Shown piece after piece: positions 10,851 through 15,646 of a stretch of DNA of 41,851 bases. The notes beneath the pieces are model-generated. The model had not been told where the DNA came from. It ran no database searches and saw nothing but the letters and a program-made list of their open reading frames with translations. Both the position numbers and the translations under genes were made by a program. The stretch spans positions 1 to 41,851 of the forward strand of contig JAAYDF010000196.1 of assembly GCA_012729395.1 (NCBI GenBank), written 5' to 3'. Source of the DNA: Phycisphaerae bacterium. GTDB taxonomy: Bacteria; Planctomycetota; Phycisphaerae; UBA1845; PWPN01. Numbering within the stretch: the first letter of the stretch is position 1; each line of letters begins with the position of its first letter.

Positions 10851-12128
10851 CTATTCCACTTCCTTGATAGCTCCCGCGTCTGCATCCTGCCCATCCATTG
10901 TCGGCATCTCGAAGTCCTCACGCATTCGAAGAACTTTGATTCCCACAATGTGACGATGTCGATCCAGGAAATCGAGTAGCTTGTCGGCCCTCACTCTCGG
11001 CGGAGAGCTGTGGACGAGGAGGACCGAACCATCCTCGGACGAGATATCGAGGATCCCCATGTGGTCGCAGTACACCGACGGCTTCGAGCCAGGCGATCCT
11101 TGTTGTGATCTAATGATGAGGCACACATCCGCTGACTGAAGGCGATGCAGGACACTTGGCAGATCATCGCGTGAGACATAGTGCTCCTCAATCACCTCTT
11201 TCTCGGGCGCAGCGGCAATCTTGGCAGCTTTGGCAGCAGCCTTGGATCGCTCCGTAAGCATCGCGGACGGCTGAATAGGGCGCACTTGGGATAGCCCAGC
11301 CACGGCATCCGCATGCGAGGGATACTGAAGAAGCACGATCCAAAGAAGCCGATCACCTCGCGGCTGGCGCTCGGCGATGACAGGCAGGCCCTTTGCGGCA
11401 TACAATTCGACGGCCTCCATTGCCTCCTCATGCGTCGGGAACGCCCCGAGTTGGACCTCGTAGGCCGTGATCGCCTCAGGTTGACTTCCCAGCCCGTACC
11501 GAACATTCCTCAAGAAGCTACGGCGAAAGACAACGTAATCGAACGATACAGGCTCGGCGCCTAGCTCAGCCGTAATATCGCGCAGAAGCCAACTGTTATT
11601 CGGCACCCAATCGGCCAAAGTGAAGAAGTTACGATCAAGAACATCGACACTGCCATTCCTATGCCGCAAACGATCGCAAAGCCACTGATAAGTACAGAAA
11701 TCTCTCGCCAACCCTAAGGCGATGGTTCGCTCGACAAAGGTAACACAGTCTGCCTGCGTGAGGTCGAACCGGCCGGCATGGAGGCGGTAGGGTGTCCCCA
11801 CCGCGCGGGAGGCAAAATGCCGCACCTCGTGGACCGGCAGAGGGCCATTCGGATCCCCCTCTTGCTCCTTCTTCCGCAACCGGATGTAGTCTCCCAGATC
11901 CTGAGAGGAGAAGTCTGACATGCTGCGGGCCGCAAGCTGCGCGTATCGCCCACGCTCCTCTCCCGTCAGTGTGTCCGCCGCCGCAGTTGTCCACGGCACG
12001 GCGATACTAACTCCGAGAAACATAGCCAGAGCGCATCCGCTGCGCATCGCTGAATGCGCTGACAAGCGGCCTCTCTCACCCGGCACGTCCTCCCTAGAAC
12101 GACCCCCTTGAGGTTCCCGATCTGCCAT
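10851..12128 (-). CDS. DUF1460-type cell-wall hydrolase with an inserted SPOR-like domain
   Basis: A 425-residue exported protein. The DUF1460 fold (NlpC/P60-like, N-acetylmuramoyl-L-alanine amidase-like) is recognised from [20 protein letters not shown] (C128 the probable nucleophile) and from the later CDHMGIL block (H356 the probable catalytic histidine). Between them, residues about 222-282 ([20 protein letters not shown] through [17 protein letters not shown]) look like a SPOR domain, which binds denuded peptidoglycan glycan, followed by an Ala/Lys-rich linker. The protein probably trims peptidoglycan at sites chosen by SPOR. GGAGGA lies 6 bp before the ATG at 12128; an ATG two codons earlier abuts the ribosome binding site and is rejected. 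The first 45 or so residues, leader and promoter resemble those of the LolA-like gene at 15484. It heads a likely three-gene transcript. Confidence 0.82.
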
Positions 12129-12200
12129 GTTCATTCCTCCATCGATGTGACACCTTCCAACACCCGCCCTGCCGTCTCCGCGCTGCGAAGGACTCCTTCG

Positions 12201-12277
12201 GCGAGACTGGCGAGACTGGCGAGACTGGCGAGACTGGCGAGACTGGCGAGACTGGCGAGACTGGCGAGACTGGCGAG
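12201..12277. repeat. 9-bp tandem repeat (GCGAGACTG)8 in the leader of the DUF1460 gene
   Basis: Eight perfect copies of GCGAGACTG (12201-12272) and a partial ninth (GCGAG) lie between the promoter and the start codon of the minus-strand gene. The paralogous leader at about 15561-15577 has the same sequence context with only one copy plus the partial, so this copy has expanded. In RNA the unit reads CAGTCTCGC. Confidence 0.95.
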
Positions 12278-12315
12278 GGATCTGCCGTGCCCCAGCCTCA
12301 CTGCCGAATGTAAGG

Positions 12316-12344
12316 AATATACACTACGCAGCGCAAGTTGTCAA
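12316..12344 (-). promoter_or_regulatory. Sigma-70-type promoter for the DUF1460 gene
   Basis: On the minus strand, TTGACA (12344-12339) and TATATT (12321-12316) are separated by 17 bp, a near-consensus promoter. Transcription would start near 12309, giving a 5' leader of about 180 nt that includes the 9-bp tandem repeat. A homologous promoter lies at 15618-15646. Confidence 0.8.
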
Positions 12345-13872: not shown

Positions 13873-13999
13873 TCATCTACTCCCGGTTTATGATTCGTGG
13901 TGCCGTTGCGGTTTCCCTTGGCAGAGCCGTCTCCACCGTGACCCGTCAACCCATCACTGATCAAGCGGCGAACCCCAATCGTCCTCGCCGGATTACCGG

Positions 14000-15484
14000 T
14001 CAATGCAACTGGAATGTCTTCATACTTGCATCGAAGAGATCGTCGAACTGATCGCCATCCTCCGCAAGCGAGGAGCAGGTCACAACGTATTTCCGGTTTG
14101 CTTTGGCGAAGAAGTACACACGCTGGCGGAGCAGCTTGCCCGCCTGCTCGTTCTGATTGACCAGCACAACTCCCTCGCTACCGCGGGAGGGCATGAACGG
14201 CCGGCGATCCAGAACTGTGAATTTCGGAAATATCTTTGCCAACGTCTTGATACCGGCGTCGACATACGCGTTGATTGAGCCCTCGTATTGCTCATCAACG
14301 ACATTGATGTTTCGGGAGAACCCATTCTGTACCGGGCTAACCGCGATCCGGTACTTCATACCTGGCCAGTCCCTGATCAGCCAAGTGTCCGGAGGATCAA
14401 AGGAGAAGCCGCCGTCTTGCTCAAAGAGCCGGCCGACGCTCGGACCCTCGCCTGGCGATGCGATGTCGCCAGACGAGGACGACGACATGAATAGCTCATT
14501 GCGGCCCTCTCGGGCATCCAACACTCGGGTTCCCGCAGGGAACTCAATCGTGAAGGTTTCCGGTGCGACTTTGGGAGCGATGACAATCGACGCACGGTCG
14601 ACTTCCATCAGTAACCGCGAGCGGACTTTGCCGACGTTGGCGGCATCCCCACATTCCACGTGCTCCAGCGTGCCTTTGACTGGGAACCACAGGCCAGGCG
14701 CGACTTCCTCGTATAGGGCGCTGTGGCGATGTCTGAGGAGCCGTTGGCCCCCCGCTTGGAGTTCCAGCACCCGCTCGATTTTGACGGGCAGGTGGTTGCG
14801 GGTCGGGTCCACCCAGAGACGGTATCCGCGTCTGATATCCTCAGAGAACCCTTCGACCAGAATCATGGGACGATCGTCGAGCACCGTATTCTGGACGGCC
14901 AAGCGGCCTTGTCGTTCCAGATCCCGCAGAAAACGATAGCGCGACTCGAAGGGCGTCACGTACTCAGTGAAGGTGCGCGGGTCGTGGATATCGCCGTCGG
15001 GAAAGAACGCTTCCTTGGGGCCGATGATGGTCCCTTTCTGCGAGCCTGGCTGATACCCCGTTCCCCGTGTCCCGTCCCAGGCGGTGATCAGGGTCTCGAT
15101 CCGATCCCTGGGACGAACCGCACGCTCGACGCGGCGGTACCGCTCTCCATCGACGGTGACTTCCATCGTCCCGCGGGGCTTGGGCTCTGGCCCCTGATCG
15201 GCCGGGTCGCGGAACTCCATGGATCCATCCGGCATGGACCGTGCCCGTCCTTCGAACTTCACCACGAAGGTGCAGGAGAAGGAACCGACCGTCTTCGCCC
15301 CGGCTTCCATCGCGTCCAGAACCCGTGCCGGGCTGAGGGCGTCTTCAGCATGTGCCCACGAACCGATCCCGAGCAACACAGCCAGAGCGTACCGACCGCG
15401 ACCCGGTGGACGGGCTGACACACGGCCTCTTGTCGCTGCCACGTTGTCCCCGACACAGCCTTCCTGCGGTTCCCGAGCTGCCAT
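14000..15484 (-). CDS. Exported LolA-like / PsbP-like two-domain protein
   Basis: A 494-residue exported protein. After an N-terminal signal region (ALAVLLGIGSWAHAED), residues about 50-340 resemble the LolA/LppX-type half-barrel found in many planctomycete proteins (GSFSCTFVVKFEG, YRLWVDPTRNHLPVKIERV). A Ser-rich linker (MSSSSSGD) follows. The C-terminal part (about 365-494) looks like a PsbP/DcrB-type domain (PPDTWLIRDWPG, then QFDDLFDASMKTFQLH at the end). It probably binds a lipid or hydrophobic ligand in the periplasm. AAAGGA lies 6 bp upstream of the ATG at 15484. Its first residues (MAAREPQEG) and its promoter and leader match those of the DUF1460 gene (MADREPQGG), although the mature proteins are unrelated. 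Confidence 0.75.
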   Translation of the reverse strand: MAAREPQEGCVGDNVAATRGRVSARPPGRGRYALAVLLGIGSWAHAEDALSPARVLDAMEAGAKTVGSFSCTFVVKFEGRARSMPDGSMEFRDPADQGPEPKPRGTMEVTVDGERYRRVERAVRPRDRIETLITAWDGTRGTGYQPGSQKGTIIGPKEAFFPDGDIHDPRTFTEYVTPFESRYRFLRDLERQGRLAVQNTVLDDRPMILVEGFSEDIRRGYRLWVDPTRNHLPVKIERVLELQAGGQRLLRHRHSALYEEVAPGLWFPVKGTLEHVECGDAANVGKVRSRLLMEVDRASIVIAPKVAPETFTIEFPAGTRVLDAREGRNELFMSSSSSGDIASPGEGPSVGRLFEQDGGFSFDPPDTWLIRDWPGMKYRIAVSPVQNGFSRNINVVDEQYEGSINAYVDAGIKTLAKIFPKFTVLDRRPFMPSRGSEGVVLVNQNEQAGKLLRQRVYFFAKANRKYVVTCSSLAEDGDQFDDLFDASMKTFQLH

Positions 15485-15617
15485 GTTCAGTCCTTTCTGG
15501 ATGTGAAAGTTCACGCCACCCGCCCTACCGTTCCCGCACCGAAGAAGACGCCTTTCCTGGGGGCGAGACTGGCGAGGGCTCTGCCGTGCCCCGGCGCCAC
15601 GCGGTGGCGTAAGAAGG

Positions 15618-15646
15618 GATATACACCACATCGGACATTCTATCAA
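15618..15646 (-). promoter_or_regulatory. Sigma-70-type promoter for the LolA-like gene
   Basis: On the minus strand, TTGATA (15646-15641), 17 bp, then TATATC (15623-15618). Sequence and position relative to the gene match the promoter at 12316-12344 (shared GTGTATAT around the -10), indicating a duplicated promoter. The predicted leader is about 127 nt. Confidence 0.7.

Follow-up and report, generated by a model that had tools for sequence, protein, structure and literature searches.

This locus raises the question of how two neighbouring genes for predicted exported proteins, with unrelated mature parts, came to begin with closely similar promoters, leaders and signal-peptide codons. The window (the whole stretch of DNA analysed, 41,851 nucleotides) belongs to a planctomycete genome available as a draft (5.74 Mb, 370 contigs, 99.55% complete); the best relatives of the Mrp/ApbC protein encoded in the window are found in Phycisphaerae and other Planctomycetota. 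The two genes, here called A and B, flank a third:

10851..12128, minus strand: gene A, 425 residues; signal peptide with a long n-region, DUF1460/AmiA-like domain and a SPOR-like insert at about residues 215-300 (Pfam)
13872-13045, minus strand: zinc-ribbon gene between gene A and gene B
14000..15484, minus strand: gene B, 494 residues; signal peptide, LolA-like region and C-terminal DcrB/PsbP-like domain (weak assignment, with LolA_like and PsbP matched on homologues)

The product of gene A matches PF07313 (DUF1460/AmiA-like) with 53.4 bits against a cut-off of 27 (E 3e-14), and solved structures of homologous domains exist (2im9, 2p1g). Its insert reaches 19.4 bits against SPOR (PF05036; cut-off 21, E 0.0013, residues 222-286) and shares 37-38% identity with the C-terminus of a second protein from this genome; homologues of gene A in related genomes have a continuous DUF1460 domain without these approximately 85 residues (215-300), and the contig search returned no orthologue. 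A SPOR-like peptidoglycan-binding domain within a DUF1460/AmiA-like domain appears to be an unusual internal insertion in this putative cell-wall enzyme. The middle of the gene B product does not match PF17131 (LolA-like) directly; one homologue does so below the cut-off (E 2e-5), and the homologues of this region are separate LolA-like proteins. The C-terminus of B matches DcrB, also below the cut-off (E 8e-4), while its stand-alone homologues, open frames of approximately 190-310 residues, several of them with lipoprotein-type N-termini, match PsbP above the cut-off. Gene B (window 14000-15340) appears to combine a LolA-like region with a DcrB/PsbP-like domain, which outside this gene occurs on its own and is then often lipoprotein-like. 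Alignment-free structure models of the two mature proteins (mean pLDDT 35 and 41) were too poor to be used. Both signal peptides end in AxA-like motifs (TAAA/D in A, AHA/ED in B). Searches for an outgroup with the ancestral, unfused state turned up no close orthologue, and the domain homologues of both mature parts bear other N-termini. Each of the two proteins thus appears to be a mosaic assembled from several parts; since this holds for both mature parts, domain joining would have occurred more than once at this locus.

Pairwise alignment and blastn delimit the homology between the two 5' ends, which covers approximately 320 aligned bases, to a stretch that begins about 40 bp 5' of the -35 box, runs through promoter, leader and ribosome binding site (RBS), and stops at the end of the signal peptide:

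12013..12387, minus strand: module copy A, covering the DUF1460/SPOR gene's upstream flank, promoter, leader and RBS together with its start and signal-peptide codons (blastn, masked and shuffle tests)
15369..15693, minus strand: module copy B, the same elements before the LolA-like gene (pairwise alignment, blastn, masked and shuffle tests)

Two blastn blocks make up this similarity, 12013-12223 against 15369-15576 (68.7%, E 2e-25) and 12263-12387 against 15562-15693 (69.2%, E 1e-10); beyond them the two regions share only upstream and intergenic repeats. The local alignment score of A against B is 108.5, compared with a maximum of 27 among 3000 random pairs drawn from the 5' ends of 604 further genes in this genome. 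After masking of the promoter hexamers, the RBS and the ATG the score is still 70.5 (maximum of 1000 shuffles, 19.5), and both the leader alone (45.5 against a shuffle maximum of 18.5) and the coding part alone (41 against 21) are significant. Identities in aligned columns are 33/47 (70%) upstream, 20/27 (74%) in the promoter, 96/121 (79%) in the leader and 94/125 (75%) in the coding part. The initial 40 codons of A and B agree at 26, 32 and 23 sites for codon positions 1, 2 and 3, respectively (position 2 versus 3, p = 0.05); as the second position is the most conserved, this is a weak sign that the encoded signal-peptide region may be under constraint at the protein level. Gene bodies and 3' flanks of A and B have no blastn similarity, and the mature proteins, which belong to different families, show no detectable homology. 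A preliminary description of this DNA had pointed to a promoter with a common core, to similar leaders, RBS settings and first residues (MADREPQGG in A, MAAREPQEG in B), and to unrelated mature proteins. These observations hold, and the likeness extends far beyond generic promoter and RBS elements.

The shared non-coding part contains the following features:

12316..12344, minus strand: promoter A, -35 TTGACA (12339-12344), 17-bp spacer, -10 TATATT (12316-12321); 11/12 to the sigma-70 consensus, a consensus match only
15618..15646, minus strand: promoter B, -35 TTGATA (15641-15646), 17-bp spacer, -10 TATATC (15618-15623)
12263..12293 (A) and 15562-15592 (B), minus strand: best-conserved leader block, GGGGCACGGCAGANCCCTCGCCAGTCTCGCC (motif search, genome)
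12200..12277, minus strand: 8.7 perfect tandem copies of a 9-bp unit in leader A, between promoter and RBS

The hexamers are largely retained between the two promoters and the spacer sequence differs; GTGTATAT is present once at each promoter and nowhere else in the window. Translation would start at the ATG at 12128 in gene A (RBS GGAGGA) and at the ATG at 15484 in gene B (RBS AAGGA). The only large difference between the copies is the 9-bp unit, present approximately once in leader B against 8.7 times in leader A. No double unit was found in the 1.1-Mb genome sample described below; the repeat of leader A appears to have expanded recently and could vary expression. Reading frames are open 5' of both starts, yet leader A has no start codon between the promoter and 12134, for which reason a translated leader was rejected and the leader is read as non-coding. 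A structured RNA leader or riboswitch was likewise rejected, as an Rfam search of both leaders matched no family and their folding does not exceed that of shuffled sequences (z -0.73 for leader B, -0.10 for leader A).

Evidence on how the two copies arose comes from remnants of a nearby acetyltransferase (GNAT) gene, which lie beside both of them:

7414-8028, plus strand: intact GNAT gene, acetyltransferase
7987..8056, plus strand: 3' end of this gene and the bases just past its stop, the counterpart of both scars
12747..12816, plus strand: scar of the GNAT 3' end upstream of gene A, GYRLFSEPHWRDPGGDTAIYVRRC (whole-genome DNA search, tblastn)
15684..15727, plus strand: 44-bp scar of the GNAT 3' end adjoining module B, 95% identical to 8013-8056

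Scar A, 70 bp in length, is 83% identical in DNA to 7987-8056 (E 3e-14 in the whole-genome search), with GYRLFSEPHWRDPGGDTAIYVRRC aligned against GYRLEATLRDFYAPGDDKAIYVRRC of the intact gene. Scar B is followed by dispersed GGTCGCC repeats up to 15921, as is the intact GNAT gene, and the region of scar B is 84% identical to the 8.0-8.2 kb region over 225 bp. Apart from the intact gene and the two scars, no copy of the GNAT 3' end was found in the genome; nor did sensitive blastn detect a third copy of the module by the intact gene. The occurrence of the GNAT 3' end at three places indicates that this interval underwent local segmental duplications, and the simplest view of the shared module is that it came from one of them; since such a scar borders both copies, the copied stretch was probably larger than a promoter/leader cassette. 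The preliminary description had the module copied in front of a second gene; a duplicated promoter, leader and N-terminus joined to an unrelated protein stands, while the scars favour a local segmental duplication over the copying of a bare promoter/leader cassette. The scars differ in age, scar B being far closer to the intact gene than scar A, and the modules differ at about one quarter of positions. Scar B and the intact gene (95%, 84%) are more alike than the modules (approximately 75%), and the two scars overlap in only 44 bp of GNAT sequence, so the scars may reflect later, independent events or gene conversion instead of a single duplicated unit.

Taken together, these data make it probable that a local segmental duplication set a promoter, leader and signal-peptide end before a different mature coding sequence. 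In such an event the 5' end of a gene for an exported protein, consisting of flank, sigma-70-type promoter, leader of approximately 120-180 nt, RBS and signal-peptide codons, would have been duplicated, placed approximately 3.3 kb away, probably by repeat- or microhomology-mediated recombination, and fused in frame, at the point where signal peptide and mature part meet, to another mature coding sequence. Together, a promoter of the sigma-70 type, an RBS-bearing leader and a Sec-type signal peptide would provide both genes with transcription, translation start and export. Two neighbouring chimeric genes would result, for which transcription from related promoters and export through related Sec signal peptides are predicted from sequence; common expression of A and B is plausible in view of the shared promoter. 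Neither chimera was found in close relatives, and for this reason the source copy cannot be told from the target copy. Homologous 5' ends that include non-coding DNA, followed by a non-homologous remainder, are what is found where a chimeric gene has formed by partial (5'-end) duplication; A and B represent a known kind of event and, as far as the searches reach, a private two-copy case. The pair offers a readable example, with scars near the border, of a possible one-step gain of expression and export by a bacterial gene. On present evidence A and B form a single private pair, an evolutionary curiosity and no regulatory system.

A possible but unlikely alternative is that a whole gene was duplicated in tandem and the mature part of one copy was replaced, such that A and B were once full paralogues and only the 5' end still shows their common origin. 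A sample of the genome (approximately 1.1 Mb taken as stretches, 848 crude gene calls) contained two further pairs with shared 5' ends, both of them ordinary paralogues. The first (L172:3262-5470; G000:C108, approximately 63.3-65.5 kb) consists of tandem PEP-CTERM paralogues with conserved ends and a diverged middle, in which the mature part (70%) has diverged far more than the upstream region (89%), signal peptide (87%) and 3' end (90%). The second consists of DUF1460 paralogues on different contigs (G000:C181 and C263) with 81% DNA identity limited to 109 nt that span RBS and signal peptide (L078:561-669, L079:1776-1884); their mature proteins are far more diverged, and this 5' end exists in only two copies in the genome. 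Both pairs resemble A and B in that leader and/or signal peptide are best conserved, and differ from them in that the mature parts are still homologous; they thereby illustrate an intermediate, in which the ends are conserved and the middles have diverged, and lend support to whole-gene duplication with body replacement. Against this, the bodies and 3' ends of A and B retain no residual homology, and their mature parts are of different families, with family-typical sequence right after the signal peptide.

The same two pairs do not demonstrate routine capture of unrelated domains. We consider it rather improbable that in this Phycisphaerae lineage the 5' ends of genes for exported proteins (leader and signal peptide) undergo repeated copying or homogenisation apart from the mature part and act as a shuffling unit, which at A/B joined an entirely new domain. 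Were it so, new extracytoplasmic domains would gain expression and export at once, and, should the other pairs found here have arisen in the same way, planctomycete export signals would constitute a shuffling unit. A partial parallel is a Schistosoma japonicum gene family in which a core promoter and signal sequence are reported to have been duplicated before unlike coding sequences, repeats marking the duplication borders (PMC3434034). The copying of core promoter and signal sequence onto differing coding sequences is common to both cases; the family belongs to a eukaryote and has dozens of dispersed copies, in contrast to a single local pair in a bacterium (PMC3434034). Bacterial genes have also been activated by spontaneous tandem duplications with short microhomology borders and changed expression (PMC11111574). 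A local duplication alters what is expressed there, as it would at A/B; that case was selected in the laboratory and concerned a transferred gene, and its abstract describes no signal-peptide fusion, unlike A/B (PMC11111574).

The preliminary description went further, suggesting that the module may mark a regulon. A mobile or regulatory 5' cassette of this kind, shared by genes for exported proteins, is very improbable, even though the leader block GGGGCACGGCAGANCCCTCGCCAGTCTCGCC is nearly invariant between A and B and the leader as a whole is more conserved than third codon positions. A DNA search of the whole genome (5.74 Mb) found no copy of the module besides A and B; a two-sequence N-terminal profile retrieved only these two, with the next match at E 0.13; and GGGGCACGGCAGANCCCTCGCCAGTCTCGCC, allowing up to 3 mismatches, has two sites only. 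The module was absent from all 12 other genomes of the family that were searched, and the leaders, with no Rfam family and ordinary folding, carry no sign of a conserved RNA element. The search for further genes with this leader, which had been proposed as a check, thus ended with A and B, and the regulon reading is largely refuted within this genome. The N-termini also recall the ESPR, the extended signal peptides of autotransporters, which form a widespread and conserved family; both have an unusually long, charged n-region ahead of the hydrophobic core, but that of A and B occurs only twice in the genome.

That the assembly repeated one region is extremely improbable: the genome is a draft with repeats in its intergenic regions, yet the copies differ at about one quarter of positions and by indels, where a duplicate created during assembly would hardly differ from its original. 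Chance or generic likeness, for which the broad features common to signal peptides and sigma-70 promoters might speak, has a negligible probability given the random-pair scores and is refuted by the masked alignment.

Two minor observations concern the surroundings of the locus. Dispersed GGTCGCC(A)CGG-type repeats lie at 8056-8230, 15727-15921 and 41743-41846 of the window, and the 1.1-Mb sample contains 96 matching pieces, spread over 31 loci and for the most part outside predicted genes. A plus-strand cluster at 2045-8028 encodes a lysine-2,3-aminomutase-like radical SAM enzyme, two ATP-grasp (D-Ala-D-Ala ligase-like) proteins, a GNAT-histone-deacetylase-like fusion and a GNAT, and is possibly a pathway for an acetylated amino acid (solute or peptide).
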